The position numbers were made by a program, and so were the translations under genes. Positions 34,285 through 53,956 of a DNA stretch of 53,956 nucleotides are shown piece after piece. The stretch comes from an uncultured bacterium (GTDB taxonomy: Bacteria; Zixibacteria; MSB-5A5; CAIYYT01): the NCBI GenBank assembly GCA_903930455.1, contig CAIYYT010000099.1, forward strand, positions 1 to 53,956, read 5' to 3'. The notes below the pieces were generated by a model. That model saw only the letters and a list, made by a program, of their open reading frames with translations. It had not been told where the DNA came from and did no database searches. Each line of letters begins with the position of its first letter. The stretch's first letter is position 1.

Positions 34285-34351
34285 GCGGACCAGATGGCGA
34301 AGGAAAATCACCGGTTGAATTGGATATTTGACTGAAACAGGAAGGTGCGCG

Positions 34352-36148: not shown

Positions 36149-37237
36149 GTGAAGATACTGACCGTAGTGGGGGCTCGTCCCCAGTTTATTAAGGCAGCCG
36201 CAGTCAGCAGGGAATTGCGGGGAAGCCATACTGAAATTCTGGTTCATACCGGTCAGCATTATGACTTCCTGATGTCCGAGGTCTTTTTTCGCGAGTTGGA
36301 GGTTCCCACCCCGGACTATGACCTTGAGGTCGGCTCCGGTAGTCATGCGATTCAGAGCGGACGGATGATGATCCGACTTGAGCAGGTCGTAATCAAAGAG
36401 CGACCTGACCGGATGCTTGTGTACGGTGATACCAACTCCACTCTGGCTGGTGCTTTGGTCGGCTCAAAGCTGCAGATTCCGGTAACCCACGTTGAGGCAG
36501 GATTAAGAAGTTTCAACAAGTCAATGCCGGAGGAAATCAATCGGATACTGACTGACCATGTTTGCGACTTGCTGTTCACGCCTACTGATGCGGCAAGTCG
36601 GAACCTCGCCGGAGAAGGGATTAATCAGGGAGTATATCAGGTCGGTGACGTGATGTACGACGCGCTGCTGCAGCATATAATGATTGCGGAGAAGAAGTCA
36701 TCCATCCTCGATCGACTCAAGCTGCGGCCTAGAGATTATGTTTTGGCCACGATCCATCGGGCAGCCAATACTGATGACAGAGTGCGGCTCGAAGCGATCA
36801 TGCAGGCTATTGCGTGCTCCGAGGTGAGTGTGATCCTGCTTCTCCATCCAAGAACGCGCGACCGACTAAAAGAATTCGGTCTTGAGAAGACGATGCAAGG
36901 CGTTGGTAATGTCCGGGTCATTGAACCCGTTGGGTATTTGGACATGCTGGTTCTGGAAAAAAACGCGAGAGCAATTCTGACCGACTCAGGCGGAGTACAA
37001 AAGGAGGCCTATCTGTTCAATGTCCCCTGTATTACGGTACGAAAGGAAACGGAATGGATGGAAACAGTTGAGGCTGGTTGGAATACTCTGGTCGGTGAAT
37101 CGTTGAGCCTGATTCCAGAGTTGATTCAGAATACTCAGTCTGAACCCCAGAGTCATCCGGATTTTTACGGGGATGGAACTGCAGCAAAGCGGATTGCACA
37201 GACGCTGGAGTTACATCGAGACAGAGTCTCAGAGTGA
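36149..37237 (+). CDS. wecB: UDP-N-acetylglucosamine 2-epimerase (non-hydrolysing)
   Basis: Converts UDP-GlcNAc to UDP-ManNAc for surface polysaccharide synthesis. 362 residues from GTG 36149, with AGGA about 6-8 bp upstream. It has KILTVVGARPQFIKAAAV at the N-terminus, VYGDTNSTLAGAL, and HVEAGLRSFNKSMPEEINR with the catalytic acids. It also has DSGGVQKEAY, which binds the UDP. Its stop overlaps the start of the following glycosyltransferase by 4 bp (GTGA). Confidence 0.94.
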   Translation: MKILTVVGARPQFIKAAAVSRELRGSHTEILVHTGQHYDFLMSEVFFRELEVPTPDYDLEVGSGSHAIQSGRMMIRLEQVVIKERPDRMLVYGDTNSTLAGALVGSKLQIPVTHVEAGLRSFNKSMPEEINRILTDHVCDLLFTPTDAASRNLAGEGINQGVYQVGDVMYDALLQHIMIAEKKSSILDRLKLRPRDYVLATIHRAANTDDRVRLEAIMQAIACSEVSVILLLHPRTRDRLKEFGLEKTMQGVGNVRVIEPVGYLDMLVLEKNARAILTDSGGVQKEAYLFNVPCITVRKETEWMETVEAGWNTLVGESLSLIPELIQNTQSEPQSHPDFYGDGTAAKRIAQTLELHRDRVSE

Positions 37238-38475
37238 ACATCCTGCTTATCAACCACTATGCAGGTTCGCCTGCGTACGGTATGGAATTCCGCCCCTACT
37301 ATCTGGCCAGAGAATGGCTGAAGAGAAATCACCAGGTGACTATTGTTGCGGCATCGTTCTCGCATTTGCGGAACAAAGCTCCGCAAATGGCGGGAACTGT
37401 CACAGACGAGATCATTGACGGAATCCGGTACCTCTGGATTAAGACACCCACTTACGAAAGCAACAGCGTGGGTCGCGCTCTCAATATGCTCGCTTTTACC
37501 TCCAGACTGTATCTTCTACGCTTGAAGCTGGCATCAGCGATTCGACCTGATGTCGTGATCTCTTCATCCACCTATCCGCTCGACATCTATCCGGCGCGGG
37601 CTATCGCGAAGAAATCGGGGGCCAAGCTGGTTTTTGAGGTGCATGACCTGTGGCCTCTCTCTCCAATAGAATTGGGAGGGATGTCGAGATACCATCCCTT
37701 CGTTTTCGTGATGCAGGCGGCAGAGAATTATGCATATCGGCATGCGGACAAAGTGGTTTCAATGCTGCCAAAGGCCGAAGACCACATGCGTTGTCACGGA
37801 ATGGCGCAGGGGAAATTTGTTTACATCCCCAACGGCATTGATGTTGCCGAATGGGAGTGCGAGAAGACAGCTCTATCCGTGGTCCACGCAGAAGTATTAA
37901 CGCAGTTGAAAGGTGAGGGAAAATTCATCGTTGGTTATGCCGGCGCCCATGGACTGGCAAACGCCCTTGGGACAGTGGTTGATGCGGCATCACTGTTGTC
38001 GGGAGATCCGGTGGATTTCGTGCTTGTAGGGCAGGGTCCGGAAAAGGACGCCTTGATGAAGAAGACTGCTCAACTGGGTTTGCGCAATGTTCACTTTCTG
38101 CCGTCCATATCCAGGGGAGCCATCCCCGCGCTTCTGCGTGCTATGGACGCTCTCTATATCGGTTTGCAGAAACAGCCGCTATTTCGTTTTGGAGTGAGCC
38201 CAAACAAGCTGATTGATTATATGATGGCGGGAGTTCCTGTCATTCAAGCCATTGCCGCCGGGAACGACCTGGTATCGGAGAGTGGTTGCGGCCTAACCAT
38301 TCCGCCGGAAGATCCGCAAGCGCTGGTTGATGCCGTAAGGGAGATGATGAAGAAGACTCCGGCAGAGAGAGGAGCAATGGGGATGATGGGGAAAGCCTAT
38401 GTTCTCTCTCATCAATCGTATGAGGTTCTGGCAGCGACATTTGAAAGAGCAATCACCGAGTGCCATGGCAAATAG
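37234..38475 (+). CDS. WbuB-like GT4 glycosyltransferase
   Basis: Family 4 glycosyltransferase of 413 residues, GT-B fold. The N-terminal domain opens with NILLINHYAGSP and has FEVHDLWPLSP; the donor domain contains YAGAHGLANALG and a C-terminal KLIDYMMAGVPVIQAIAAG. The WbuB group transfers (acetamido)sugars onto polyprenyl-linked glycans, fitting a role beside the UDP-GlcNAc epimerase in making a ManNAc/FucNAc-type surface glycan. GTG 37234 overlaps the epimerase stop. The acceptor is unknown. Confidence 0.85.
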   Translation: MNILLINHYAGSPAYGMEFRPYYLAREWLKRNHQVTIVAASFSHLRNKAPQMAGTVTDEIIDGIRYLWIKTPTYESNSVGRALNMLAFTSRLYLLRLKLASAIRPDVVISSSTYPLDIYPARAIAKKSGAKLVFEVHDLWPLSPIELGGMSRYHPFVFVMQAAENYAYRHADKVVSMLPKAEDHMRCHGMAQGKFVYIPNGIDVAEWECEKTALSVVHAEVLTQLKGEGKFIVGYAGAHGLANALGTVVDAASLLSGDPVDFVLVGQGPEKDALMKKTAQLGLRNVHFLPSISRGAIPALLRAMDALYIGLQKQPLFRFGVSPNKLIDYMMAGVPVIQAIAAGNDLVSESGCGLTIPPEDPQALVDAVREMMKKTPAERGAMGMMGKAYVLSHQSYEVLAATFERAITECHGK

Positions 38476-38823
38476 TGACTTGGCGTTGTTATCTTCCTGG
38501 TTTCCGGCGCTGCATGTAACCTACGGCATAGCCTCGTGGGTGGCGCTTTTTAGTCAAATCCCGGCTCATCGTGCGAAAGTCCGAGACACTGATCCTTCTT
38601 CCTGAATCCATTGAACTCCCATTCCATGTTGCAGTCTCCCAGACAGCGCGGAGGCAGTTCTTCTATATGATTTGCCGCCAAAGTGGACATCAAATCGATG
38701 AATAGGAAGATTTCAGTTGACAAGCAGCCTAATGTGCTTAAATTGAAATAGGGTCTTAAATCATACGTTTTGCTTCTTCTGAGCACCGATGGTAGTGCTC
38801 CCGTTAGTGCAAACAGGAGTGTC
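38476..38823. other. Intergenic region before the dockerin-bearing gene
   Basis: About 350 bp. It holds a probable promoter at 38717-38744. A 46-codon open frame from 38464 has no homology that I recognise and overlaps the glycosyltransferase end; I see no gene. Confidence 0.5.
38717..38744 (+). promoter_or_regulatory. Probable promoter for the beta-helix gene
   Basis: TTGACA (38717-38722), a 16-bp spacer and TAAATT (38739-38744), 80 bp upstream of ATG 38824. Confidence 0.55.
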
Positions 38824-41800
38824 ATGGTAGTTTTACGTCATCATACTAAAAGGATGGTTGTAATGAGATTTTCTCTAATGCTTGCTTCGATCGCGGTTGC
38901 GATGTTCTCTTTCGTAGCACAGCCCGCGTTTGCTGACCCAGGTCTTCAAACCACTGGAGTGATGCACTTCATGGATTCCGACTGGGATACGATTGGTGCA
39001 TGCTATGTCGCCGGAAGTGACTCGGCCTACCTTGAGCTGAAAGACGAAGACGCAGATTCGCACGTCCTACTGCGTGACAGCGTCTTGGTTCTCCTCAAGA
39101 GCGAATTCGGGGATGGCGAAGTGATCTATCTGCGCGAAACCGGTTTGAGCACCGGTGTCTTTCACGCTGCCATAGCCTTTGATTTACAGGCCAACAAGTT
39201 TATGAGTTGGTTGAAGCAGAAATATCCCGATGGCCTCGGCTCCGGTAAAGAGGCAGACAAGCTGATGGCCAGTGAGTTGGCTGTCTGGCAAAACAGCGCC
39301 AAAAAGCAGGCACTGGCCACGAACGACGGAAAGCTGCAGGTCGCTGCCGGCAATCTCCTGACGGCTATATATCTCGATCCCCTGAACGACTGGGGGGTGC
39401 AGGAAACAATAACAAAGCAGACTATTTACGGAGGCTGGGAGGGTTACGTATCCGGAGTCTGGAAGGCCTCCGGCAATCCGTACATTGTGGTTGGGGACTT
39501 GACTATCGGTCAAGGTTACAGCCTGACCATGGAAGCCGGAGTTCAGGTCAGATTTATGCACGATGTCTCTTTGCAGGTCAACGGTGGCGCATCACTGATC
39601 ATCAGAGGGAGCGAGACTGACAGTGTGCATCTCACTAGTTTCAAAGACGTTCCTGCAGATTCGGTTTTCTGGACGGGAATATACATTGCCTCCGGCTACT
39701 CTGATCAACACGGTCGACTAAGCATCAACCATGCCGTCATCTCAAAGGCCTCACAGGCAATCTCCTGCAACAGTTACGACACTCTGGAGTTACTGAGCAG
39801 CCACATCACACAATGCGGTAGTGACGACTGGTATGGTAATCCTGCATTATATTGCAGCGGACCTATCCGCCTGATTGGCTGCCTCGTTGACAACTGTAGT
39901 AAGGACGGAATCGACATCAGCGGCCCCTACGCGGAAATCCGCGGCACAACCGTATCCGGAAACGCCGGCACAGGGATTAGCATCTCGCGCAGCAATGTGG
40001 CTTTTGAAGATGTAACTGTCACCGACAATACCTATGGCGGTATAATCGTCTACAACTACTATAGCTCATCATATGTCGATTTCAGGATATACCACAGTCA
40101 GTTGCATGACAATGGCGATTTCGATCTGTCGAACAATAGCAGGGAAGAAGTGGATGCCAGATTCAACCGGTGGGGAGCCGCCACCACGGCGGATATCAAC
40201 GCGGGAGGCAACCCAAAGAACCTGGCCAAGATCTGGGATCACTTTGACGACTCGTACTATGGTTATGTCAGGTATGGCGGTTGTGATGGTTGTCCTGTTC
40301 CCGGGTCCGACGGGAAACTGGCATTCGCCAACACTTACGGGGACACGATCGGGCAATACTATCCGCCGGGGACAGACTCCATCTATCTCGTATTGACGGA
40401 CTTAGATCTGAACGCGAACCCGTTCCAACTGGACCACATTGACATATCCTTAAGCAGCCGCTCTGGCGACGAGGAGACTGTGAGTCTCCGAGAAACCGAT
40501 GTTAATACAGGGGTCTTTCGTTGCGCGATACCGGTTGACCTTCAAGCGCCTATATTTCTCAATTGGGTCACGCAGAAGTATCCCGGTGGCTTCGATTCAA
40601 TGTCACCTGACGAGGTCAATGCCTTGATTCGCGATGAACTCAATCAATGGACTACTCAGACCAAGAAGGCGAGGATAGCACCAGGCGACGGCCAGCTTCA
40701 GATCGCTCCCGGAGATCAGATTACGGCTATCTATTATGATGCCCTGAACGAATGGGGCAGTCCGGCTACGATAACGGCTACTGCCATCTATGGTGGCTGG
40801 TCGGGATTTGTGAGCGGGGTCTGGACGAAAGAGAACAATCCATACATAGTCGTCGGAGATATCACCGTCGGTAGTGGTTACAGCCTTACGATGCAACCGG
40901 GAGTTCAGGTCCGGTTCGAGCGCAATGCGTCTTTGATCGTACAGTACGGCGGTAAGTTGCGCGTGCGCGGGACTGAAGGCGATAGTGTGTACCTGACTTC
41001 CGACGAGTTGTTTCCATCTGATTCCGAATTCTGGGGTGGCGTCCGTTCATCAGGCTATTACCCTGAAGGGACAGAACTTGAGATTAGCTACGCCGTTATC
41101 GCAAATGCAGTCGCCGGCATTACTCACGATGGCGACGATATGTTGAATCTCTCTCACAGCCATATCACGAACTGCGGAAGGCGTCAGGACTATTACTCGT
41201 CTCAGGCAGTTTATACCAACGGGCCGTTCGCCATCAGTGACTGCTTGATAGACAGCAGCCGAGGAATTGGCCTCATTCTTGCTCACAGTGGGAAGATCAG
41301 CGGCACGGAGGTCTCCGGAGGTGGCGACTGGGGCATTAGAGTCGGCAGCCCCGGAATTGAAATCGAAAGGTCAAAAGTGATCAACAACTACCTCGAAGGG
41401 ATCGTGTGTTACTCGTCAGATCCCGGCAACCCTCTCGTTGTTCATCACAGTCACCTCTATGGCAACGGTGGCTATGATTTTGCCAATTACGGTCAGTCTG
41501 ATATCGATGCCAAATACAATTGGTGGGGCGAGACCACTACACAGGAAATGAAAAATGGTGACAATCCTAAGAATATAGCCAAGATCTATGACCGTTTTGA
41601 TTACTGGTATAACGGAATTGTTAAATATGGCGGCTGGATGAATTTCCCGTATGTAAGTGGCGATGCCGATGGCAGTGGAGACATCAATATAGCAGACGTC
41701 GTCTGGCTCATCGGTTATCTGTTTTCCGCCGGTCCAGCGCCAGCACCTGTCGGGGCCGGAGACACGAACTGCGACGGCAGAGTCAACATCGCCGACGTTG

Positions 41801-41859
41801 TTTGTTTGATCAACTATGTCTTTGGAGGCGGCCAAATGCCGGGGGTGAACTGCGAATAG
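38824..41859 (+). CDS. Secreted beta-helix protein with internal duplication and dockerin-like end
   Basis: An exported protein of 1011 residues; I do not know its substrate. ATG 38824 follows AGGAG, and ATG 38863 (AAGGA upstream, signal peptide ending PAFA) is an equally good start. Two long tandem halves (residues ~45-495 and ~497-944) share order and sequence: a beta-sandwich-like opening with LRETGLSTGVF / LRETDVNTGVF, a segment with Q(K)YP, IYGGWEGYVSGVW / IYGGWSGFVSGVW, then a right-handed beta-helix with NPYIVVGD. The last ~65 residues (from G946-DADGSGD) form two Ca-binding dockerin-type repeats (INIADVV...VNIADVV). The cells may display it on the surface or attach it to a scaffold. 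Confidence 0.75.
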   Translation: MVVLRHHTKRMVVMRFSLMLASIAVAMFSFVAQPAFADPGLQTTGVMHFMDSDWDTIGACYVAGSDSAYLELKDEDADSHVLLRDSVLVLLKSEFGDGEVIYLRETGLSTGVFHAAIAFDLQANKFMSWLKQKYPDGLGSGKEADKLMASELAVWQNSAKKQALATNDGKLQVAAGNLLTAIYLDPLNDWGVQETITKQTIYGGWEGYVSGVWKASGNPYIVVGDLTIGQGYSLTMEAGVQVRFMHDVSLQVNGGASLIIRGSETDSVHLTSFKDVPADSVFWTGIYIASGYSDQHGRLSINHAVISKASQAISCNSYDTLELLSSHITQCGSDDWYGNPALYCSGPIRLIGCLVDNCSKDGIDISGPYAEIRGTTVSGNAGTGISISRSNVAFEDVTVTDNTYGGIIVYNYYSSSYVDFRIYHSQLHDNGDFDLSNNSREEVDARFNRWGAATTADINAGGNPKNLAKIWDHFDDSYYGYVRYGGCDGCPVPGSDGKLAFANTYGDTIGQYYPPGTDSIYLVLTDLDLNANPFQLDHIDISLSSRSGDEETVSLRETDVNTGVFRCAIPVDLQAPIFLNWVTQKYPGGFDSMSPDEVNALIRDELNQWTTQTKKARIAPGDGQLQIAPGDQITAIYYDALNEWGSPATITATAIYGGWSGFVSGVWTKENNPYIVVGDITVGSGYSLTMQPGVQVRFERNASLIVQYGGKLRVRGTEGDSVYLTSDELFPSDSEFWGGVRSSGYYPEGTELEISYAVIANAVAGITHDGDDMLNLSHSHITNCGRRQDYYSSQAVYTNGPFAISDCLIDSSRGIGLILAHSGKISGTEVSGGGDWGIRVGSPGIEIERSKVINNYLEGIVCYSSDPGNPLVVHHSHLYGNGGYDFANYGQSDIDAKYNWWGETTTQEMKNGDNPKNIAKIYDRFDYWYNGIVKYGGWMNFPYVSGDADGSGDINIADVVWLIGYLFSAGPAPAPVGAGDTNCDGRVNIADVVCLINYVFGGGQMPGVNCE

Positions 41860-42206
41860 AACGGTATTGACACGCAAGTGATCAGAGTAGGCCCGCCCTT
41901 GCGGGTGTGGTACCGATGTAAGAGCTGATTATGCAAACAGGGTGATACCCGCCTCCGTTTTTTGCTTTACATGCCGACCATCGTGGCCATCACCTTCAAC
42001 CCCAGCTACCATTACCAACGCCATTTGGGCAATCACAAACCCAAAATGGTAGCCCTGATGGCTTGCATAAAGAAACTGTTGCTGATGGCTCAGGCCATTC
42101 TGATCTCTCAGCAACCCTTCAATCCCAACAGAAAACCATTGACATGAAGGGCGGTATCTGCTCAACTATTGCCGGTGAGGGGAAAGTCAAACTAGATTGT
42201 CAGTGG
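41860..42206. other. Intergenic stretch with IS110 remnant
   Basis: About 350 bp between the dockerin-bearing gene and the minus-strand kinase end. It contains the IS110 transposase remnant (41944-42147) and the start of a 7-bp tandem repeat at 42201. Nothing else is recognisable. Confidence 0.6.
41944..42147 (+). pseudogene. IS110-family transposase remnant (C-terminal end)
   Basis: An open frame resembling the C-terminal domain of IS110/IS116 transposases: L-Y-M-P-T-I-V-A-I, N-P-S-Y, then KPKMVALMACIKKLLL. It lacks the N-terminal RuvC-like catalytic part and an intact start, so it is a degenerate fragment about 60 residues long. It shows a past insertion between the dockerin-bearing gene and the kinase. 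Confidence 0.7.
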
Positions 42207-42221
42207 TCAGTGGTCAGTGGT
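42201..42221. repeat. Three 7-bp tandem repeats (CAGTGGT)
   Basis: CAGTGGT is repeated at 42201, 42208 and 42215. On the minus strand this supplies the last codons and the stop (TGA, 42207-42209) of the receiver-kinase gene, so the C-terminal residues TTDH derive from the repeat. Confidence 0.75.
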
Positions 42222-43409
42222 CTGGACGACGCTTTCGCTTGGTCTTGAAGGAGCATGATCAGCATCGCTACCCCGGACACTGGGAAATAACGCATCGACC
42301 TTGGTGCCGACGCCTGGTTCGCTCTGGATGAGGATGTCGCCTTCGGCGTCCAGTAGGATGCGGCGCACCGTGGGCAACCCCAGACCTGTTCCACGTCCCG
42401 GTGGCTTGGTGGTGAAATAGGGTTCGAAAACCTGACTCAGAGTCTGCTCATCCATCCCCTCACCTTCATCGGTGATCTTAAGCCGGCAAAATTGCCCCTG
42501 CAAGGAGGAATGTCCGGGAGGTAACGAAAGCCGGTCACCAGCAACTTCGGTGATTGAGATAGTAATCGTTCCTTGTCCGTGCATGGCATCGGATGCGTTG
42601 ATGCACAAGTTCATGATAACCTGGAAGACCTGCGTCGCGTCGACAGGCACAAACATGGGAACGTCAGGTCTGTTCCATAGGGTTTTCACTGTGCTAGGCA
42701 ACAAAGCCGCGAGCAATTCCAAAGCGTCATCTACCATGACGCGGAAATCGGCACCCTTGGTTTTGGCGTCGACTGGTTTGCCAAGATCACGAATTCGCTG
42801 GACCAGCTTCTTCGCATGCATGATTGCATCGATGGATTTTTGCAGGTGTAGCCTGGCGGCATCGTTTCCGCCGACTTTGTGGCTGGCAAGTTCCACATGA
42901 CCGGAAATACTCTGCAGGATGTTATTCAGATCGTGGGCGACACCACTGGCCAGAAGCCCGGCCATCTCAGTACGTTGGGCCTGCGCCAACTGGCGTTCAT
43001 AAGCGATATTCTGCATAAGGATTCGATCCTGGTATGACTTGATTCGCAGGGCGTTTCGCAGTCTACTCAGCAACTCCTGGGGATTGGCTGGCTTGTTTAC
43101 GAAGTCCATCACTCCCATCGATAAGGCGGTTTCCCTGGCTTGGGAATCATTAAGTCCGGTGAGCATAAGCACGGGAGTATTCTCGGTGGCGGGATCCGAT
43201 TTCAGTCGATTGACCAGTTCGATCCCGTCCATCTGGGGCATGCGCAAATCGGTCACGATAACATCTACTCCGCCCTGGGCGATTCGCTGCAGCGCCTCCT
43301 TTGCCGATGAAAACGCCTCCGTGCGGCATTCGAGACCGCTGTTGCGAACCATCCGTCGCAGCCCGTCCAGAACGCTGGGTTCATCATCAACAAAGACAAT
43401 CGCCTGCAT
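42207..43409 (-). CDS. Receiver-histidine kinase hybrid
   Basis: Two-component signalling protein of 400 residues. ATG 43409 has GGAAGG 7 bp upstream. The N-terminal receiver domain (1-~125) has D8/D9 and the phosphoacceptor D54 (VTDLRMPQMDG), T84 and K106. A linker (~126-145) leads to the HisKA domain with H159 in GVAHDLNNIL, then an HATPase_c with N-box ending MNLCINASDAMHG, DEGEGM and GTGLGLPTVRR. No membrane segment is visible, so it is cytoplasmic and takes its input through the receiver. The end is formed by a short repeat. No partner effector gene is adjacent. Confidence 0.85.
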   Translation of the reverse strand: MQAIVFVDDEPSVLDGLRRMVRNSGLECRTEAFSSAKEALQRIAQGGVDVIVTDLRMPQMDGIELVNRLKSDPATENTPVLMLTGLNDSQARETALSMGVMDFVNKPANPQELLSRLRNALRIKSYQDRILMQNIAYERQLAQAQRTEMAGLLASGVAHDLNNILQSISGHVELASHKVGGNDAARLHLQKSIDAIMHAKKLVQRIRDLGKPVDAKTKGADFRVMVDDALELLAALLPSTVKTLWNRPDVPMFVPVDATQVFQVIMNLCINASDAMHGQGTITISITEVAGDRLSLPPGHSSLQGQFCRLKITDEGEGMDEQTLSQVFEPYFTTKPPGRGTGLGLPTVRRILLDAEGDILIQSEPGVGTKVDALFPSVRGSDADHAPSRPSESVVQTTDH

Positions 43410-44038
43410 TGTAGTCCTTCCTGGCTTCCGCACTCTGCATCGCTGTTCGCGACAGGTTGGTTGTCAAACCGCAGACCGTCTGCAGGGTGGCGCCTTGGAG
43501 CCATTGTCGCTCCCTACGTTAATCAATCGGCTCAAGTCGAGTATTTCTCCAGCGTGAGAAGAAATGAACATAGGGAGACGGATATGCGTGATTATCCCTG
43601 GAAGATGGGCCAGGTTCTCGAAATGAAGGTACGGTAGCGGTGGGAGGATTTGGGCCTACGACCTCCGCATGACGAGCCTGTTCTAACGCCAAACCCACAG
43701 ACAACACCGGACAATAGACACTAATAACAGCAACGACTTGTGCTGACTGCAATTGTCCGGTGTTGTCCCGTTCTGTGCCGTGCTGAGGCATGCTTTATTG
43801 GACAGGTGTCTCGTGGCCGCCAGTCGTCTACGTTTGGCGGCTAAGGCGCGGCAGGCTGAGACAACTTCCGCGCGCAGAAACCGGAAGAGCCTCGACCGTG
43901 TATCTACGAAGCCACGAGGCTGACCGAATCGAAGCCGATCCGGTCTTTTTCCTTTGTGTTCGCGGGAGACCGATCATAGATTGCGCAAATGGAAGAGGCA
44001 AGAAGTTGTAGTTCAGACTCGAAGTGAGAAGAACAGGG
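43410..44038. other. Intergenic region between divergent kinase genes
   Basis: About 630 bp. It contains a 16-bp inverted repeat (43700-43715 / 43752-43767). Beside it, on the minus strand, is a sequence like the 3' half of a tRNA (43633-43690). No credible protein-coding gene was seen; the open frame at 43790-44011 has no family features. Confidence 0.5.
43700..43767. repeat. 16-bp inverted repeat (hairpin)
   Basis: GACAACACCGGACAAT (43700-43715) is perfectly complementary to ATTGTCCGGTGTTGTC (43752-43767), separated by 36 bp. No T-run follows either side, so it is not a standard terminator; it could be an operator or the remnant of a mobile element. Confidence 0.7.
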
Positions 44039-45181
44039 ATGTCGGAACCATGGGGGTTCCGATCCGCAAAACTGACCTTTGAGCGACCCCTCGCAAAATG
44101 GTTTGTCTTTGTCATTGCCTGGACGCTAGTCGGAGCTTTTTTCGCCACACGCTGGTACTTCATCTACAAAGGCACGTCAACGCCGATGTCCTGGATGGAG
44201 TCCCTGACCCTGGGATTGATCGAGTGGTATCTGTGGGCGTTGATCAGTCTTGTTGTTTTTCGACTCTGTCGGCGATTTCCGCTCGACAGCGCCGGTTGGC
44301 GGCAGGCCTTGCCCATACTGGCGGTTGCCGCTGTAATCATCGTGCCGCTTCAGATCACAGCCTACACGAGCATTCATGTCCCGGTAGATGCGTACTTCAT
44401 GAGTAACCAGCCATCCCCAGTTCAGCGCAGTCTCTGGTCCACATGTGTTGTCATGCTGAAATCGAAATTTCACGTCGGCGTCCTTACTTTTGGCCTCATG
44501 GCCATCGCCTCCTACGCTTTTCTGCTATATCGCAAATACCGGGAGGAAGAGCTGCGAGCGTCGGAGTTGAAAACGCAGCTTGTCAATGCGCAACTTAACA
44601 CGCTGAGAACACAATTGCATCCCCATTTCCTTTTCAACTCGCTGAATGCAGTGTCGACGTTGATGCAGGAGGATGTCGAAGCTGCTGACCGTATGCTGAT
44701 GCGCCTTTCCGATCTGTTGCGTCTGAGTCTTCACGGCGTCGGAAAGCAGAAAGTGCCGCTGCGAGAGGAACTCGAGTTTGTTCAACGCTATCTGGATGTC
44801 GAGAGAGTACGGTTCTCCGATCGATTGCATACGTCTCTGCAAATTGACCCGGCGACTACGGACGCCGCCGTGCCGTACCTGCTATTGCAGCCATTGGTCG
44901 AAAATGCCATCCGTCACGGCATATCCCCGAAACCCGGCAGTGGCACTGTCACCGTATCATCTCAGCGTGTCGGAGAGCGGCTGCTACTGCAAGTTGTCGA
45001 CGACGGCATCGGTTTGCAGACGCAGAAGGACAGAACAGGCGAGTCAGGGGTCGGGCTTGCGAATACTCGCGAGCGCCTACAAATGCTATATGGTGATAAC
45101 TGCTGTTTCTCGCTGAGCGATACGGGAGATGGAGTCACCGTGAGGATCGAAATTCCCTTTGAGGTTTCAACATCTTCATGA
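44039..45181 (+). CDS. LytS/YehU-type sensor histidine kinase
   Basis: Membrane sensor kinase of 380 residues from ATG 44039 (a GTG 15 bp upstream is open). Four membrane helices lie within ~22-170, then a His_kinase domain (PF06580-like) with H194-P-H196-FLFNSLNAV; H196 is the likely phosphorylation site. An HATPase_c with ENAIRHGISP and DDGIGL follows, ending GVGLANTRERL. It is followed 32 bp later by the LytTR response regulator, forming a complete two-component pair. The signal is unknown. Confidence 0.88.
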   Translation: MSEPWGFRSAKLTFERPLAKWFVFVIAWTLVGAFFATRWYFIYKGTSTPMSWMESLTLGLIEWYLWALISLVVFRLCRRFPLDSAGWRQALPILAVAAVIIVPLQITAYTSIHVPVDAYFMSNQPSPVQRSLWSTCVVMLKSKFHVGVLTFGLMAIASYAFLLYRKYREEELRASELKTQLVNAQLNTLRTQLHPHFLFNSLNAVSTLMQEDVEAADRMLMRLSDLLRLSLHGVGKQKVPLREELEFVQRYLDVERVRFSDRLHTSLQIDPATTDAAVPYLLLQPLVENAIRHGISPKPGSGTVTVSSQRVGERLLLQVVDDGIGLQTQKDRTGESGVGLANTRERLQMLYGDNCCFSLSDTGDGVTVRIEIPFEVSTSS

Positions 45182-45213
45182 ACCGCATTCGCGCCCGCCG
45201 CGGAGGATGAATT

Positions 45214-45957
45214 ATGCGCGTCCTTATAGTTGACGATGAACCGTTGGCCAGAAAACGCATCCGTTCGCTGCTCCAGGGAGCGGAAGATATCGAAATTCTG
45301 GAGGAATGCCGTGATGGTGAAGAAGCCGTTCGAGCAATCACTCGCGAAAGACCAGACCTCGTCTTTCTCGACGTCCAAATGCCCGGAATAGATGGATTTG
45401 GGGTACTGGCCAGAATCGACCCGTGGCAACTGCCGGTCGTGATTTTCGTGACAGCTTACGATCAATATGCAATCAAGGCCTTCGAGGTTCACGCTCTCGA
45501 CTACCTGCTCAAGCCATTTGACAGAGAGCGGTTCCAGATGGCATTGACACGAGCCAGAGCTCATCTGCTGAAAGCCGACGTGGCCGCCAGGCAGCTTTTG
45601 TCCATGCTTGAATCGCTGAAAAAGCCACCTGTTGAGGACAAGCGAATCCTCATCAAGTCAGGCGGCAAGGCATACTTCCTCTCGACGGCTGATATCGACT
45701 GGATCGAGTCTGCCGGCAACTATGTCACAATCCACACGGGGAGCGATCGTCATCTTCTGCGGGAGACCATGAAAGGGATGGAGCGGCGTCTCGATCCTCG
45801 GGTTTTCAAGCGCATTCATCGTCACGTCATTGTCAACGCCAACCGAATCAAAGAACTCAGAACCTGGTTTCAGAAAGACTACAAATTGACCCTCCGCGAT
45901 GGCACCACGCTGATGGTCAGTCGCCGCTATCGACATAACCTCGACGGAGCGCTCTGA
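45214..45957 (+). CDS. LytTR-family response regulator
   Basis: DNA-binding response regulator of 247 residues. The receiver domain (1-~120) has D7/D8, phosphoacceptor D53 (FLDVQMPGIDG) and K103-like P (DYLLKPFD). The LytTR DNA-binding domain is ~145-245 (ILIKSGGKAYFLSTADIDWIE, NYVTIHTG, FKRIHRHVIVN). It lies immediately after its sensor kinase. Typical regulons are exported proteins; the next gene, a dockerin-bearing beta-helix protein, is a plausible target by position only. Confidence 0.88.
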   Translation: MRVLIVDDEPLARKRIRSLLQGAEDIEILEECRDGEEAVRAITRERPDLVFLDVQMPGIDGFGVLARIDPWQLPVVIFVTAYDQYAIKAFEVHALDYLLKPFDRERFQMALTRARAHLLKADVAARQLLSMLESLKKPPVEDKRILIKSGGKAYFLSTADIDWIESAGNYVTIHTGSDRHLLRETMKGMERRLDPRVFKRIHRHVIVNANRIKELRTWFQKDYKLTLRDGTTLMVSRRYRHNLDGAL

Positions 45958-46316
45958 GCGTCGCCTGACCGCCTGTCACAGAAACTCCGCCTATTATCAC
46001 ATCCATAAGCCCATCGTCACATACGGCTGTTGGGATTGGACAAGTCGCCCTATCATATGTGCGAAGATCGCATTTGCGGAGGTTGTGACTGCACGATCTG
46101 CCAGAATTGGCCGTTGTCGGACCGGTGTTCTTAGGTGTTTTCGACGGTACAGATCGGCCGTTTAGCATCCAGCCGGAGACATCTCATCAACTGCTTGATC
46201 TTTGCAGCACTTTCGAAACCGCTCAGGCATGCTTCCGACCCGATGCGAGTAATATGCTTGTCGAAGTTGATGATGACAGTACCGCGAGATAGTCAAAAAT
46301 AACCATGGAGAAACCA
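45958..46316. other. Intergenic region
   Basis: About 360 bp. No promoter hexamers of note and no gene with recognisable features; a short open frame (46107-46292) lacks any family signature. Confidence 0.4.
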
Positions 46317-47963
46317 ATGAACTCTCGGGAGCAAATTGCCGCCGTCGTAATGATACTGGTCCTAAACTGCATGGCGAAGGCTACGGTTGTCGACGTACCA
46401 TCCGACCAACCTACTATCAAAGCAGCTATCAGTGCAGCGGCTGATGGGGATACGGTTCTTGTTGCCGATGGCATGTACTTAGAGAACGTCCAGATTCGCA
46501 CGAAGAAGATAGTTCTCGCCAGTCAATTCATTTTGGACGGAAGCACCGATCACATACTGAACACGATCATCAACGGATCCGCCCCGTCATCCTCCGATAC
46601 GGGCAGTTGCATCATCATAGCGGGGAGCGCGGCGTCACAATCGGTGGTTCGCGGGTTCACAATCACCGGCGGTACCGGCACACGTTGGCTGGACATTTCT
46701 GACAGCCATATCTACCGTGAGGGGGGTGGAATCCTCATCGAGGCTGAGAACGTCAAAGTATATGACAACATCATCGCTAACAATGCGGCGACAGATGTGT
46801 CCGGCTCGTCGAGTGCGGGTGGTGGCGGCATTCGCTGCGGTTTTGGGTCGGCAGAGTTCATCCACAACGTAATCGCATACAATCAAGGACGCTATGGTTC
46901 AGGGCTGGTTGCGTTTCATTCGCCGGTTGTTATCAAGAACAACGTCGTGTTCGCCAATACAGGCAGTCAGACATACGGTGGCGCCGGCCTCTGGATCTGG
47001 GGAGGCGAGTTTCTGAGCACAATAGTCAACAACACGATCGCCAACAACACGACCACTAATAACGGCGGTGGGATTTCCGTTCGCGATCACACAGTAGCCC
47101 TCGTCAACAACATCGTCTATGGTAACACGGCGACCTCCGGTTCCCAGATTTATGGAGGATCAGGCGCAACCATCAACGCGAGTTGCTGCGATGTCCAAGG
47201 AGGGTACTCCGGCACGGGCAACATGGATCAACCTCCGTCATTCGCCGCACCCAATTTCCTGCTCTCAGACGCGTCGCCGTGCGTTGACGCAGGCAATCCG
47301 GAGACAGCGTACAACGACCCCGAAGATTTGGGCAATCCGGGCTTCGCAAAAGCTCCCGCGAAAGGCGCTGTTCGTAACGACATGGGCTGCTACGGTGGAC
47401 CGCTGGCGATCGACTTTCCATTGTCCACAGCACCTTCAATCAGCGTCATCAACAACCCGGTGCAATTCGACTCTATTGGTGTTGGAGGGAAGGACACGAC
47501 GGTCATTCGATTGGCCAAGGCAGGTTATGGCAATGTCACTATCGACAGCGTCCGCTTTCTGAATCATCCGCCAACCGCACTTTCGGCAATCACGCCACTG
47601 CCGCATTTATGGGGGCTGGGGCGCAGCGATTCCGTCCTGATCTCGTGGCAATCGCAGTCTGAAGAAAAGATGATCGATACCGCGCTTGTATACCATAATG
47701 ATCAGTCGGTGGGCAATCCGATAATCGTGGAACTGCGTGGCAAATCATGCTGTAAATCATGCGGCGACGCCAGCGGCGATCAAACCGTGGACATCTCCGA
47801 TGTAGTATACTTGATCGCCTACATTTTCTCCGGTGGTTCGGCACCGTCGCCATTGCTCGCTGGTGATGCCAACTGTGACAGCATAGTCGATATCTCGGAT
47901 GTAGTGTATTTGATCGCCTACATCTTCTCCGGCGGACTGGCGCCGTGTGCCATGTGTAAGTAG
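46317..47963 (+). CDS. Secreted beta-helix protein with dockerin-like end
   Basis: Exported protein of 548 residues; ATG 46317 has GGAG 6 bp upstream. The signal peptide covers ~1-22 (ending CMAKA). Residues ~28-370 form a right-handed parallel beta-helix resembling pectate-lyase/polysaccharide-binding proteins (DVPSDQPTIKAAISAAADGDTV at the opening; repeats such as NNTIANNTT). A short beta-rich linker covers ~380-480, then C482-GDASGD opens a dockerin-type pair with two almost identical Ca-binding loops (VDISDVVYLIAYIFSGG twice). No catalytic motif is obvious, so binding or structural roles are as likely as lyase activity. Confidence 0.78.
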   Translation: MNSREQIAAVVMILVLNCMAKATVVDVPSDQPTIKAAISAAADGDTVLVADGMYLENVQIRTKKIVLASQFILDGSTDHILNTIINGSAPSSSDTGSCIIIAGSAASQSVVRGFTITGGTGTRWLDISDSHIYREGGGILIEAENVKVYDNIIANNAATDVSGSSSAGGGGIRCGFGSAEFIHNVIAYNQGRYGSGLVAFHSPVVIKNNVVFANTGSQTYGGAGLWIWGGEFLSTIVNNTIANNTTTNNGGGISVRDHTVALVNNIVYGNTATSGSQIYGGSGATINASCCDVQGGYSGTGNMDQPPSFAAPNFLLSDASPCVDAGNPETAYNDPEDLGNPGFAKAPAKGAVRNDMGCYGGPLAIDFPLSTAPSISVINNPVQFDSIGVGGKDTTVIRLAKAGYGNVTIDSVRFLNHPPTALSAITPLPHLWGLGRSDSVLISWQSQSEEKMIDTALVYHNDQSVGNPIIVELRGKSCCKSCGDASGDQTVDISDVVYLIAYIFSGGSAPSPLLAGDANCDSIVDISDVVYLIAYIFSGGLAPCAMCK

Positions 47964-48680
47964 AGTGGTATAGCGGGGCAGGCGAAAAAGATCGCCGTGC
48001 GCGAATTCAAAATGTGGGGGAATAAGAAAATGCCGAAGACGGGATTCTCTTGGCCATATTTTCGTAACTTGACGACTCATAATGGGTTGTGTCTCAACCG
48101 CTTATAATCCAAGCAGTTGGGGGGGGGATTGTGGTTTGATCTCCTTTGATCGAGTTTGATGTTTTTTGACGGTGGGTGGTCACAAAATGGTCATAGATTC
48201 CCACTCTGCCTTGTCGGGCACTTTTCAATGATGGTAGGTCGATCACATAAACTCAATGACAGTAAACAATGATTAAGATTATGCGGATTTTCATTCAAAC
48301 GAAGGGCTTCTCCACGCTTTGGCTTTGAGTTGCATATCGAGCACAGGAGTGGCACTGACGACTGACGTCGTTCCGATTCCTTGGCTGGCCCGATCCAGTT
48401 CGAAGAGGTCAGCCAAGTGCCCCAACTAACCATCGACCTTTTCGGGGGAAGGTCTTAGCTCTGCCCTTTCTCCTTGTCCACTAGATCGGGGGAGGTCCAG
48501 TTTTTGTTGTCGCCTCAGCGGGAAAATCCGCTACGCTGACGACAAATGTGGTTGCCGCCACCACATCTCGTGACTATAATTGGCATCCAATGTGCACCAA
48601 TGCCATTTGCCGCTGCCTCAGTCTGGCTGTGAGCAGCAGGGCGAAAGGTCAATAGTTAAGTATTCTGGAGGTTGTCCCAA
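47964..48680. other. Intergenic region with repeat copy 1
   Basis: About 715 bp between the dockerin gene and the propeller-amidohydrolase. It contains the first 349-bp direct repeat (48027-48375), then an imperfect 11-bp hairpin (48381-48391 / 48408-48418). No intact gene is seen. Confidence 0.6.
48027..48375. repeat. Long direct repeat, copy 1
   Basis: A 349-bp sequence repeated at 53304-53651, by eye around 85% identical with mostly transition differences. It contains TTTGAT at 48135, 48145 and 48155 and TTTGAC at 48165, exactly 10 bp apart. It lies 64 bp after the stop of the dockerin gene. No protein frame is maintained between copies. Confidence 0.85.
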
Positions 48681-51600
48681 ATGATCAGATTGAGAGGATT
48701 CGCAACAGTTCTTGCGGCGTGCAGCCTGGTTCTGTTCCTGTTCGCAAGTGCCGACTGTGATGTGTTGGGAAGCACGACGAAGGATTCATCAGGAAGCAAG
48801 TGGGACGTCAGCATTCCTCATGTCCCAAGCGACACAATCGAATTCGAAGCCACCGAAGGAACGTGGATAACGGTAGACGTTTCCCCTGATGGCAAAGAAA
48901 TCGTCTTCGATATTCTGGGGGACGTCTACAAGATGCCGATCTCGGGTGGCGATGCCACTTTGCTATCTGGAGGACTCCCGTATGAGGTCCAGCCACGTTT
49001 CAGCCCCGACGGCAAGAAAATACTCTTCACCAGTGACCGTGGTGGTGGCGATAACATCTGGATGATGAATGCTGACGGAAGCGACAGAGTTCAGCTCACC
49101 AAGGAGGATTATCGCCTTCTCAACAATCCCAGTTGGCATCCAAGTGGCCAGTATTTCGTCGCCAAAAAGCACTTCACGAGTCAGCGCAGCATGGGGGCCG
49201 GTGAGATGTGGATGTACCGGGTCCCTGAATCCGGCTCGGGCGTTCAACTGACCAAGAAGAAGAATGAACAGCAGGATGCAAATGAGCCGATCTTTTCGCC
49301 GGACGGCAAGTACCTGTACTGGTCGGAAGACATGTCTGGGGGGAACTACTTTGAATACAACAAAGACCCCAACGGCACTATCTATGTCATTCGTCGACTC
49401 GATTTGCAGACCAATGAAATCCGCAACGTCATCGAGATTAACGGCGGCGCTTGCAGGCCGCAGATCAGCCCGGATGGGAAGACCATGGCATTTGTGCGAC
49501 GCGTGCGGGGGAAATCGGTGCTGGCGCTGTGCAATCTCGAAAACAGTAGCGTTCGACATTTGTGGAATGGTTTGGACGAGGATCAGCAGGAAACATGGTC
49601 GCTGTTTGGCGTCTATCCGGGGTTCGACTGGATGCCTGATGGCAAGAGCATTGTGATTTGGGCAAAAGGCGAAATCTGGCGGGTGGACGTGGCAACGGGT
49701 GCGCCAACGCAAATTCCATTCAAGGCACACGTCAAGCAGATAGTTGCGCAGGCGATACGATTTCCTCAGAACGTGGGGGATTCCAAGTTCCCAGTGAAGG
49801 TGATTCGTTGGCCACAGACAACGTCTGACGGTCGCGAAGTGATCTTCCAGAGTCTGGGTTACCTCTACAAAAAGTCGCTTCCTTCTGGTCCGGCGGTTCG
49901 ATTGACGCGACAAACGGATTACTTCGAATTTGCTCCGGCGCTATCTTCGAACGGCAAGGAGATTGTATATGTAACTTGGAGCGACACCAGCGGCGGCACT
50001 ATTCGTATTGTGGGAGTTGATGGACGCAATGAGCGGACGGTGGTTTCACGACCGGGACATTATGTGTCAGCCCATTTTTCTCCCGATGGCAGTCTGGTGG
50101 TATTCCAACGCGGTACTGGCGATGGTTTCCGAGGCCGGTTGTGGCAGGAAGAACCGGGGATTTACGTTGTTTCCAGCGATGGCAAAACGGCTCCGCGATT
50201 TCTTACTCGCGAGGGAGATACTCCCCGCTTCTCGCTCGAGGGCAAGCGGATCTATCTTGTTTCTCGCGAAGGCGAAAAAGATGCTCTGATCAGTGTCGAT
50301 CTGCTTGGCTCCGACCGCCGCGTGCAGGCAGTCTCTGAGCATGCAGGTGATTTTGTTCTCTCTCCAGACGAAAGCTGGCTTGCTTTCGAAGAACTCTGGC
50401 AGGCCTACGTTGTGCCATTTCCCAAGGTTAGCACGCCGTTGGAAATCGGTCCCGAGATGAAGAACCTACCGGTGAAAAGGCTATCAACCGATGCCGGAAC
50501 GTATCTTAACTGGTCAGCGGATAGCAAGAGAGTGTCGTGGAGTACGGGACCGGAGTACTTTACAGCAGACATGACAGCGCTGTTAGCTGCTGACGCGGTG
50601 AAGGATTCTTCGAAGGTCTATAAGGCGGTTGCAGTCGATCTCGGGTGGCAAGAGAAAGCAGATATCCCGAGTACTGATCTTTACTTCGTTGGTGCAAGAG
50701 TACTACCGATGAATGATCTCTCGATCATTCCGGATGGTGTCGTGCATGTCAAAGGAAATCGAATCGTCGAAGTCGGCGAACGCGGCAAGGTTGCTATTCC
50801 AACCGGCGCCAAGGTAATTGACGTCGCTGGGAAGACGTTGATGCCCGGCTTGGTTGACGTCCATGCTCATCCGGGAAGCAGCAATCAGTCTATTTATTCG
50901 CAGCAAGTTTGGTCATTTCAGGCGAATCTGGCTTTCGGGGTCACAACCATGCATGACCCGAGCAACAATTCGCAGATGATCTTTGCGGCGGCCGAAATGC
51001 AGAAGCAGGGGACACTGATTTCACCGCGCATTTTCAGTACCGGTACGATCTTGTATGGCGCCGAGGGGGATTTCAAGACTGTCATCAACAAATATGAAGA
51101 TGCTGTCAGCGCGGTCAAAAGAACCGCCGCATGGGGTGCAATCTCAGTCAAGAGCTACAATCAGCCACGTCGAGAGCAGCGGCAAATGGTTATCAAGGCT
51201 GCACGTGAACTGGGAATAATGGTCGTTCCGGAAGGTGGCTCCACACTCAACAATATGATCACCATGCTCCTTGATGGCCATACGACGCTTGAACACCCCA
51301 TACCGGTAGCGCCTCTTTATGATCCGGAATTGCGATTGCTAAGTCGCTTTGGATCAGGATATACGCCGACCCTGATTGTCGGGTATGGCGGCCTCTGGGG
51401 CGAGAACTACTGGTACCAACACAGTAATGTATGGGAAAATCAGAGATTAGCGAAATTCGTGCCGCGTTGGGTGATTGATCCGCGATCAATTCGGCGGACA
51501 ATGGCGCCTGATTCTGAGTATCATCATTTTGCTCTCTCCAAAACGGCAACCGATGTTTTGCATCGCGGTGGCAATGTGGAGCTTGGTGCACACGGACAAC

Positions 51601-51947
51601 TTCAAGGTCTGGGCGCTCACTGGGAGTTGTGGATGCTACAGCAGGGGGGAATGACAAATCATGAAGCGTTGCGATGCGCTACCTGGATGGGCGCGAGAGC
51701 AATTGGTCTCGATAAGGAGCTAGGTAGTATTCAACCCGGTTTGCTGGCCGATATCATTGTCATCGACGGTGACCCACTCAATGATATCAGACAGTCAGAG
51801 AATGTGCTCTACGTGATGATCAATGGCCGTTTGTACGACGCGCGAACATTAGAGCAACTTGAACCAGAACGAAAGCCGCTCGGTAAGGGACCAAACCTCG
51901 AAGGAGTTCTGGGATCTGACGTGAGTACCGACTGTCTAGGGTTTTGA
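48681..51947 (+). CDS. Exported TolB-like propeller/amidohydrolase fusion
   Basis: A 1088-residue exported hydrolase. GGAGG lies 9 bp before ATG 48681; residues 1-28 form a signal peptide ending SADC (C28 could also be a lipid anchor). Residues ~50-625 are a TolB/WD-like beta-propeller with repeats such as FSPDGKKILFTSDRGG. The amidohydrolase domain starts near 665: H728-A-H730 (VDVHAHPGS), a lysine in SVKSYNQ (K-Y), HTTLEHP with conserved His, and GAHGQ, then GSIQPGLLADIIVIDGDP. Enzymes of this type include exported dipeptidase/imidazolonepropionase-like hydrolases; the actual substrate is unknown, and peptides are suggested by the transporter that follows. Confidence 0.85.
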   Translation: MIRLRGFATVLAACSLVLFLFASADCDVLGSTTKDSSGSKWDVSIPHVPSDTIEFEATEGTWITVDVSPDGKEIVFDILGDVYKMPISGGDATLLSGGLPYEVQPRFSPDGKKILFTSDRGGGDNIWMMNADGSDRVQLTKEDYRLLNNPSWHPSGQYFVAKKHFTSQRSMGAGEMWMYRVPESGSGVQLTKKKNEQQDANEPIFSPDGKYLYWSEDMSGGNYFEYNKDPNGTIYVIRRLDLQTNEIRNVIEINGGACRPQISPDGKTMAFVRRVRGKSVLALCNLENSSVRHLWNGLDEDQQETWSLFGVYPGFDWMPDGKSIVIWAKGEIWRVDVATGAPTQIPFKAHVKQIVAQAIRFPQNVGDSKFPVKVIRWPQTTSDGREVIFQSLGYLYKKSLPSGPAVRLTRQTDYFEFAPALSSNGKEIVYVTWSDTSGGTIRIVGVDGRNERTVVSRPGHYVSAHFSPDGSLVVFQRGTGDGFRGRLWQEEPGIYVVSSDGKTAPRFLTREGDTPRFSLEGKRIYLVSREGEKDALISVDLLGSDRRVQAVSEHAGDFVLSPDESWLAFEELWQAYVVPFPKVSTPLEIGPEMKNLPVKRLSTDAGTYLNWSADSKRVSWSTGPEYFTADMTALLAADAVKDSSKVYKAVAVDLGWQEKADIPSTDLYFVGARVLPMNDLSIIPDGVVHVKGNRIVEVGERGKVAIPTGAKVIDVAGKTLMPGLVDVHAHPGSSNQSIYSQQVWSFQANLAFGVTTMHDPSNNSQMIFAAAEMQKQGTLISPRIFSTGTILYGAEGDFKTVINKYEDAVSAVKRTAAWGAISVKSYNQPRREQRQMVIKAARELGIMVVPEGGSTLNNMITMLLDGHTTLEHPIPVAPLYDPELRLLSRFGSGYTPTLIVGYGGLWGENYWYQHSNVWENQRLAKFVPRWVIDPRSIRRTMAPDSEYHHFALSKTATDVLHRGGNVELGAHGQLQGLGAHWELWMLQQGGMTNHEALRCATWMGARAIGLDKELGSIQPGLLADIIVIDGDPLNDIRQSENVLYVMINGRLYDARTLEQLEPERKPLGKGPNLEGVLGSDVSTDCLGF

Positions 51948-51993
51948 AATTGCGCGCTTTGTGGGACGCTTACGATAGAGAAGAGGGGTGTCT

Positions 51994-53271
51994 GTGACAT
52001 CTGACATCAATAGACATCCGAAAGGATTCTGGTTCGTCTTCTGGGGCGAACTGGCTGAACGTGCCAGCTTCTATGGGATGAAAGCACTCCTCGTGCTTTA
52101 CATGATCGACAAGCTCGGTTACAGCGACGCCAACAGTTCCACCGTTGCCTCGTTCTTCACGGCCGCCTGCTATCTGCTGCCGATCGCCGGTGGCTATATC
52201 GCCGATCGCTGGTTGGGGAAGTTTCGCACGATCATCTACTTCGCAATTCCCTACATCATGGGGCACATCATCCTTGGCACATTCACTTCGGAAGTCGGCC
52301 TCTATATTGCGCTGGCCTTGCTGGCGGGGGGCTCTGGTTCAATCAAACCCAATATCAGCACACTGATGGGACGGATGTACGAGGAACAGGGCAAGAGCCA
52401 TCTCTTGTCGCAGGCATTCTCCTGGTTCTACATGGCAATCAATATCGGCGCCGCGTCAACGATGACATCGTTGCCGTTCATCAGAGACCGGTATGGTTAC
52501 AGCATGGCTTTCATGGCCCCTACGATCATGATGGCCGTGTCTCTTGGCATTTTCTATCTGGGTAAGAAACACTATCCCAAAGAGGATGTCCGTCAGCTTG
52601 CGAGTGTTGTGAAGATCCCGCAGCAGCGGCATGAACAGCGAGCGGCGCTCGTACGTTTGTCGGGACTCTTCCTACTCATCGTGTTCTTCTGGTCGATTTT
52701 CGATCAGTCTTATTCGACCTGGACTCTGTTTGCTCGTGATTATCTTGTACTCGATACCTGGATAGGGAGAATTCCTCCGGATGCGATTCAGGGGCTCAAT
52801 CCGATTCTCATAGTAGTCATGTCGCCGTTTTTTGCATGGCTCTGGATGAAGACCGACCGAAGCACGGTTCGGCCACTTTCCACACCGAGGAAGATGCTCC
52901 TTGGGTTCGTCATGGTTCTGCTTTGCATGGTACTGATGACAGTGGCCGGATATCTGGCTGCCAGCTCCAAAGTGTCAATTTTGTGGGAGGTGGGCGCCTA
53001 TGTTCTGATTACGGCAGCAGAGCTTTGCATCTCAGCAATCGGTTTGCAACTGGCTTTCGAGGAAGCGCCGGAGCACATGAAATCAATGATAACCGGTGTC
53101 TGGTTGTGCACCGTGTTTCTTGGCGACATCCTCGCCGGTCTATTTTCGCGGCTCTACACACAGACAACACCCGGCAATTTCTTCGGCATGATGACGGTGA
53201 TGATTGCGTTGGTGACAATCGCCTTCTACCAAGTCGGCAAGCGGTTTGATCGCAAGGGTGCTGGTCAATAA
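51994..53271 (+). CDS. POT/PTR-family peptide transporter
   Basis: Proton-coupled oligopeptide transporter of the major facilitator superfamily, about 425 residues with ~12-13 membrane helices. GTG 51994 has GAGGGG 5 bp upstream; a GTG at 51988 is the alternative. It shows the POT signatures: GELAERASFYGMKALL near the N-terminus (the ExxER-type motif of helix 1) and GGYIADRWLGKF. Its helix-10-like EEAPEHMKS resembles the conserved helix segment of PTR2. It is probably an inner-membrane importer of di- and tripeptides or related compounds. It lies 46 bp after the amidohydrolase and is likely co-transcribed. Confidence 0.9.
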   Translation: MTSDINRHPKGFWFVFWGELAERASFYGMKALLVLYMIDKLGYSDANSSTVASFFTAACYLLPIAGGYIADRWLGKFRTIIYFAIPYIMGHIILGTFTSEVGLYIALALLAGGSGSIKPNISTLMGRMYEEQGKSHLLSQAFSWFYMAINIGAASTMTSLPFIRDRYGYSMAFMAPTIMMAVSLGIFYLGKKHYPKEDVRQLASVVKIPQQRHEQRAALVRLSGLFLLIVFFWSIFDQSYSTWTLFARDYLVLDTWIGRIPPDAIQGLNPILIVVMSPFFAWLWMKTDRSTVRPLSTPRKMLLGFVMVLLCMVLMTVAGYLAASSKVSILWEVGAYVLITAAELCISAIGLQLAFEEAPEHMKSMITGVWLCTVFLGDILAGLFSRLYTQTTPGNFFGMMTVMIALVTIAFYQVGKRFDRKGAGQ

Positions 53272-53640
53272 TTGGGAATATGCTGCGAGGATAACCGAAG
53301 ATAAAAAATGCCGAAGGGGGGATTCTCTTAGCCATGTTTTTGTAACTTGATGACTCGTGATGGGTTATGTCTGAACCGCTTATGATTCAAGCAATTGGGA
53401 GTTGATTGTGGTTTGATCTCTTTTGATCGAGTTTGATGCTTTTTGACGGTGGATGGTCACAGAATGGTCACAAATTCTCACTGTGCATTGTCGAGTACTC
53501 CTCAATGATGATAGGTCGATCACATAAATTCAGTGGCAGTAACCAACGATTAAGATTATGCGGATTCCCATTCAAAGCAAGGGCTTTTCGGCACTTTCGT
53601 TTTGAGTTGCGTATCGAGCACACGAATGGCACTGACGACT
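53272..53640. other. Intergenic region with repeat copy 2
   Basis: About 370 bp between the transporter and the transposase remnant. Nearly all of it is the second copy of the long direct repeat; no gene is seen. Confidence 0.6.
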
Positions 53641-53651
53641 GACGTCATTCC
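53304..53651. repeat. Long direct repeat, copy 2
   Basis: Counterpart of 48027-48375, in the same orientation, 32 bp after the transporter stop. The phased TTTGAT units are kept at 53412, 53422 and 53432 with TTTGAC at 53442. It ends where the IS3-type remnant begins. Confidence 0.85.
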
Positions 53652-53956
53652 TGATTGCCAGCCCGGGCTTCACGGTACTCACGGCAGGGATAAGTTTGTT
53701 CAGCCGACCCAGCGGGTTCATGAACTGTGGCAGACCGACTTCACCTACCTGAAGATTGTCCATTGGGGCTGGTACTTTCTGTCGACCGTGTTGGATGACT
53801 ACTCCCGCTATATCCTCTCCTGGCGGCTTTGTACAGGGATGGCGGCCAGCGATGTCAAGGAGACCATTGAAGAAGCGATAGCGGTCTCGGGAGTTGCCGA
53901 TGCCAGGGTCGTCACACGACCACGCTTGTTGTCGGATAACGGCCCCTGCTATGTAT
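53651..53956 (+). pseudogene. IS3-family transposase (OrfB integrase) remnant
   Basis: Part of an rve-type integrase: LWQTDFTYLKI, LDDYSRYILSW and RLLSDNGPCY are characteristic of IS3-group OrfB. The first part (IASPGFTVLTA, frame at 53654-53686) is in a different frame from the rest, showing a one-base deletion near 53690. The N-terminal domain is missing: it breaks off at the end of the long repeat. The window ends before its own end, so a full element to the right cannot be excluded. Confidence 0.8.

Follow-up and report, generated by a model that had tools for sequence, protein, structure and literature searches.

Direct repeats around an amidohydrolase-peptide transporter gene pair in a Zixibacteria genome as probable distal attachment ends of tRNA-Leu-targeting integrative elements

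It is known that cis-mobilizable elements (CIMEs) originate from integration, decay and then accretion, as in the ICESt1-related elements of Streptococcus thermophilus (PMC5704250). In Dehalococcoides, the ssrA-specific genomic islands are stacked and bounded by repeats of the 3' end of a structural RNA gene, and 15 of them, which lack integration modules, were proposed to be cis-mobilizable (PMC3146451). Here we analysed two direct repeats that flank an amidohydrolase gene and a POT-family peptide transporter gene in a contig of 53,956 nt, taken whole as the window (C99 in this text), from an uncultured Zixibacteria bacterium. These repeats are very probably the distal attachment ends of elements that target tRNA-Leu(CAG) by a tyrosine integrase, and the stretch 48027-53304 would be one unit, devoid of an integrase, of a CIME-like tandem array.

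So read, the window unit resembles the CIMEs and the accretions of integrative and conjugative or integrative and mobilizable elements in carrying its cargo between direct attachment sites derived from a tRNA 3' end, in lacking integration genes and in adjoining an element with identical site specificity. It differs from CIMEs in that the integrase-side arm is missing, the mobilisation is putative and the host belongs to an uncultured Zixibacteria lineage; moreover, no conjugation genes were seen in the little that is assembled of its neighbouring element. The array shares with the ssrA islands the stacking and the bounding repeats, but those islands use a serine recombinase, the tmRNA gene and a 20-bp repeat (PMC3146451), whereas the Zixibacteria ends go with a tyrosine integrase, with tRNA-Leu or tRNA-Ser and with a conserved end of about 175 nt (347 nt in the window's genome). 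The features in common with classical tRNA-targeted tyrosine-integrase islands are the integrase by the tRNA 3' end, the displaced far copy of this 3' end and the arm-type repeats on both sides, although the window unit has no integrase of its own. The kind of arrangement is already known; for Zixibacteria, a full-text literature search found no description of tRNA-targeted elements.

The repeat copies lie on the forward strand at 48027-48374 (copy 1) and 53305-53651 (copy 2), they are 86% identical and their spacing of about 5277 nt gives a unit length of 5.28 kb. Copy 1, with a core, an arm-like region and a conserved 180-nt tail, would be the outer distal attachment end, and copy 2 the inner one, belonging to the next element in the array. 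In their alignment 300 positions match, and the differences are 40 transitions, 16 transversions and a single gap of 1 nt, corresponding to a Kimura two-parameter distance (K2P) of 0.18. The initial annotation had described direct repeats of about 350 bp that bracket exactly two genes, differ mostly by transitions and, in copy 2, run into an IS3-type remnant, and our analysis agrees with it on each of these points. It had also attributed the differences to ageing non-coding DNA: the non-coding nature holds, as stop codons interrupt all frames of copy 1, but the region is a structured attachment region rather than featureless ageing sequence. A search of the whole 3.77-Mb genome of the window (G000, a metagenome-assembled genome of 266 contigs) returned these two full copies only, and hence none at the unrelated loci that would have spoken against a cassette. 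The one additional match, 27 nt in a LysE-family gene on contig C90, is a chance match; a LysE pseudogene was considered as source of the repeat and rejected, since the match falls within an intact coding frame of the LysE type and could not be extended. The repeat was not found in other genomes of the same genus and family, nor in the phages or plasmids searched, and it was unmatched in Rfam even at E 1.

Both copies open with the reverse-complemented 3' end of the tRNA-Leu(CAG) of the same genome. The core of copy 1, at 48027-48046, has the reverse-complement sequence AAAATGCCGAAGACGGGATT, with two mismatches to the tRNA-Leu; that of copy 2, at 53304-53324, is AAAAATGCCGAAGGGGGGATT, whose 21 nt are identical to contig C92, where the tRNA gene is located. 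These putative attachment cores are in direct orientation on the same, forward, strand. Zero-mismatch matches to AATCCCNNCTTCGGCA in G000 were limited to the two copies, the tRNA-Leu of C92 and one coincidence in LysE coding sequence. About 105 nt inward of the core, the copies show 10-bp-phased TTTGAY repeats and then a GTCACA-N5-GTCACA pair. The phased TTTGAT/TTTTGAC repeats, which may be arm-type sites, occupy 48135-48170 in copy 1 and 53412-53447 in copy 2 (forward strand); the pair reads TGGTCACAAAATGGTCATA at 48177-48195, where its second half is decayed, and TGGTCACAGAATGGTCACA at 53454-53472, on the same strand. We take the TGGTCACA pairs as putative integrase arm pairs of the ends. 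A G[T/A/G]CAC[A/T]-N5 repeat pair is present between integrase and tRNA in 4/4 integrase ends checked (G000:C92, G024:C4, G024:C16 and G003:C314) and recurs in distal ends, with a background of about 0.0035 per 200 nt for the relaxed pattern in the DNA examined; the pair of copy 1 is one base off this pattern.

The tRNA-Leu(CAG) gene of G000 maps at 4034-4119 of C92, and a tyrosine integrase gene (2846-3946; PF00589, E 2e-37), 42% identical in its product to the integrase of G024:C4, sits directly past the tRNA 3' end. This integrase is preceded by the same GTCACA-type pair as the window copies, and an excisionase-like open reading frame (ORF) of the HTH_17 type is found nearby. Upstream of the tRNA, C92 is collinear, at 83-90%, with G001, a genome of the same genus used for comparison of collinearity, and the similarity ends 2 nt beyond the tRNA 3' end. 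C92 begins inside the tRNA-Leu element and C99 ends in an insertion sequence (IS); the tRNA with its integrase and the distal end were seen on one molecule in G024. In the element interior beside the integrase and excisionase genes (G000:C92:1-2100), the coding strands are strikingly A- and C-rich with short unfamiliar ORFs, and the cargo there is probably phage- or plasmid-like.

A class-wide search of 133 genomes detected, in 2 other genomes only, sequences weakly related to about the first 170 nt of the repeat; since one sequence was used as the query, further ends may exist. The ends share a layout: the tRNA 3' end in reverse complement comes first, a variable stretch of about 85-105 nt follows, and then come TTTGAY motifs spaced by ~10 bp and a GTCACA-type pair whose period is 11 bp. 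The tRNA that provides the core changes with the locus, being Leu in the window copies and in G024:C4, Ser in G024:C16 and another one in G124. Such a layout is expected where an integrative element that targets a tRNA gene has its distal attachment site. On G024:C4, a tyrosine integrase gene comes after tRNA-Leu(CAG), and a displaced 24-bp core of the tRNA 3' end opens a repeat-like end at a distance of 24.9 kb; on G024:C16, the gene after tRNA-Ser(GGA) encodes a related integrase, and the displaced core, here of 22 bp and about 75 kb away, opens a like end. Because like ends close these two complete elements, the window repeats are best explained as distal attachment ends. A second tandem array is present in G124:C20, where three ends with one orientation, 85-89% alike, occur at 33231, 25164 and 14877 and bound two units: the one of 8.1 kb has MacB-type transporter genes and sigma-54 two-component genes, the other measures 10.3 kb, and neither shows integrase homology. 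The ends are 85-89% similar within an array and 51-60% between arrays and elements of different genomes, as if each array had drawn on one element lineage. The 75-kb tRNA-Ser element has, just beyond its distal end at about 272 kb of G024:C16, an ORF recognised by eye as that of a transposase of the type associated with repetitive extragenic palindromic sequences.

The array would then be ordered as flank, core and arms, amidohydrolase and POT genes, core and arms, next element (damaged by IS and deletion), and so on to the integrase and tRNA-Leu. As both window copies point in one direction, the amidohydrolase-POT unit would abut the opening end of another element and not the tRNA. A plausible route is that an element with the gene pair integrated at tRNA-Leu and lost its integrase end, that a related element then inserted between the unit and the tRNA by CIME-like accretion, and that an IS together with a deletion damaged this inner element next to copy 2. 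In principle, an integrase acting on both cores could cut the unit out as a circle of about 5.28 kb, or mobilise it jointly with its neighbour. We infer both this order of events and any present mobility of the array.

Several observations weigh against this reading. C99 stops inside the IS, and its link with C92 would be provided by the unique core. The K2P of 0.18 between the copies exceeds the 7% divergence of G000 and G001 in conserved genes, which points to an old event or to ends that had diverged before they were stacked. In copy 1, the core carries two mismatches and the arm pair is decayed, features that fit the outermost and oldest position in the array. To the left of copy 2 there is no integrase-side arm, the stop codon of the POT gene being 32 nt before the core. 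Finally, the left flank of the window has no synteny with the flank of tRNA-Leu in G001 or G002, and the sole support for the tRNA-Leu site from that side is a short resemblance of the junction to G001 (10/14, a score reached by 0.25% of a null uncorrected for multiple testing; 10/14 also in G002), which is only suggestive.

The repeats could have arisen differently. A tandem duplication, or a Campbell-type homologous integration of a circle through 347 bp of non-coding homology with an incidental tRNA-like start, is very unlikely: only two direct copies are present, their arms are long enough for homologous recombination and the unit has no integrase, but in both copies the tRNA-derived core is where the homology begins, and 5 further ends in relatives have the core-plus-arms layout, 2 of which close complete integrase elements. 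As origin of the ends this explanation is largely refuted, whereas RecA-type exchange on the repeats could take place now. The initial annotation had suggested that the cassette could be exchanged or amplified through recombination between the repeats, or may have arrived as a unit. This is partly supported, as arrival and possible departure of the whole unit through its repeats fit our data; as the repeats are read as tRNA-Leu attachment ends, the implied route is site-specific integration with tandem accretion, and not generic homologous exchange or a composite IS transposon. The abutting IS3-type fragment might recommend IS-mediated transposition of the pair, or a composite transposon, but a composite would have an IS at both ends, and here it is at one side only and 5'-truncated; furthermore, the intact IS on C235 and the IS end on C2 come without the repeat and the junction resembles a deletion that extends into the IS, all of which makes this origin extremely improbable. 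Hardly any credit can be given to a dispersed, MITE-like (miniature inverted-repeat transposable element) intergenic repeat or a decayed gene fragment copied twice: the repeat is intergenic and AT-rich, copy 1 has no coding frame and there is the LysE match, but this match is in coding sequence without extension and the only two copies in the 3.77 Mb both have tRNA-derived edges.

A different case is that of an integron-like array, in which native integrase-less circles, each with one core and one arm set, would be placed into tRNA or core sites by an integrase that works in trans. All 3/3 bounded units (one in the window, two in G124) have a complete end at their opening and show no homology to integrases, and the window unit and the first G124 unit hold coherent gene sets; on the other hand, the ends were found by a distal-end search, so that retention of the distal end is ascertained, internal loss of integrases is ordinary in old tandem arrays (PMC5704250, PMC3146451), and the complete elements of the family have their integrase at the tRNA side. 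We hold this origin of the units to be unlikely. A broader form of the idea, in which Zixibacteria tRNA genes would anchor integron-like arrays, one tyrosine integrase at the tRNA side would shuffle the units, and the window and G124 units would be native cassettes, is speculative and likewise unlikely.

Returning to the surroundings of the proposed CIME-like array, the IS3-type OrfB fragment (rve; 53651-53956, forward strand), truncated at its 5' end, starts where copy 2 ends and runs off the contig. An intact relative at C235 scores above the NCBIfam IS3 cut-off, and the repeat is absent from both this IS and the IS end on C2. Over its last 141 nt, C99 has the same sequence as the end of contig C2, as would be expected if the assembly had broken within a repeated IS. 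C2 was considered as the continuation of C99 and rejected, as this 141-nt IS end is all they have in common and the linkage is ambiguous; neither tRNA nor integrase was found in the C2 stretch examined. To the left, outside the array, lies a dockerin-type gene (46305-47963, forward strand), and the DNA for its C-terminal dockerin-like tail (47760-47975) has nearly 40 diverged relatives (70-83%) genome-wide and many in G001-G004. The array is flanked by a variable region, 32246-48026, about 16 kb without collinear match in G001, while parts of the 20.9-32.2 kb stretch match at 93%. The segment 41970-42168, single-copy in G000, is 90% identical to G001:C146:5430-5634, 1.2 kb from the G001 tRNA-Leu, and similar sequence occurs at three further G001 places. 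Farther away, the backbone of the contig carries a selenocysteine locus at 1527-4867, where tRNA-Sec lies beside genes recognised by eye as selA- and selB-like.

The only two long genes between the copies are intact and on the forward strand. The first (48672-51947, 1091 aa) encodes an amidohydrolase with a PD40 propeller and, by eye, a signal-peptide-like N terminus; by sequence, its amidohydrolase domain is closest to dipeptidases of the amidohydrolase superfamily and their kin, with the structures 2qs8 (Xaa-Pro dipeptidase), 3feq/3n2c (prolidase) and 3mtw (carboxypeptidase). The second (51988-53271, 427 aa) encodes a POT/PTR2 oligopeptide:H+ symporter, above the NCBIfam cut-off for this family, and its relatives point to Zixibacteria. 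A tblastn search of the unit gave no integrase homology, and neither gene is one for integration or transfer. The cargo probably serves the uptake and cleavage of short, perhaps proline-containing peptides, a peptide-scavenging role suggested by the families of the two proteins. The amidohydrolase is present in 6/57 relatives and POT in 14/57, including 6/6 amidohydrolase carriers (Fisher test 8e-5, kinship ignored), and the two form a conserved pair; both are absent from 4/4 other family members. The genes are neighbours in G018 and have a prolyl oligopeptidase gene between them in G022. These relatives carry the pair without flanking repeats, a situation that the initial annotation would have taken as adverse at the same locus, but their loci differ from this one, and all that follows is that the pair predates the window arrangement. 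The proposed comparison of codon usage was also carried out: the relative codon adaptation index is 0.70 for the amidohydrolase and 0.72 for POT, against 0.61-0.76 for neighbouring genes (GC 0.53), and this native-like usage is uninformative on transfer. In the trees, the nearest relative differs between POT and the amidohydrolase, whose node is poorly supported, and the direction of transfer is not readable from them. Just upstream of the amidohydrolase-peptidase-POT operon of G022:C3, a CRISPR (clustered regularly interspaced short palindromic repeats) array with 17 detected repeat copies stands beside a tRNA-Asn gene (L065:12119-13219).

With this reading, a repeat that had no explanation is defined as an attachment end, for which integrase, core and arm motif are predicted, and the combination of a tRNA 3' end, a TTTGAY array and GTCACA-N5-GTCACA offers a handle to search for the mobile gene pool of Zixibacteria. 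The cargo, peptide-scavenging genes in the window and a MacB-type transporter operon in a relative, suggests that in these bacteria metabolic genes move as small integrase-less units.

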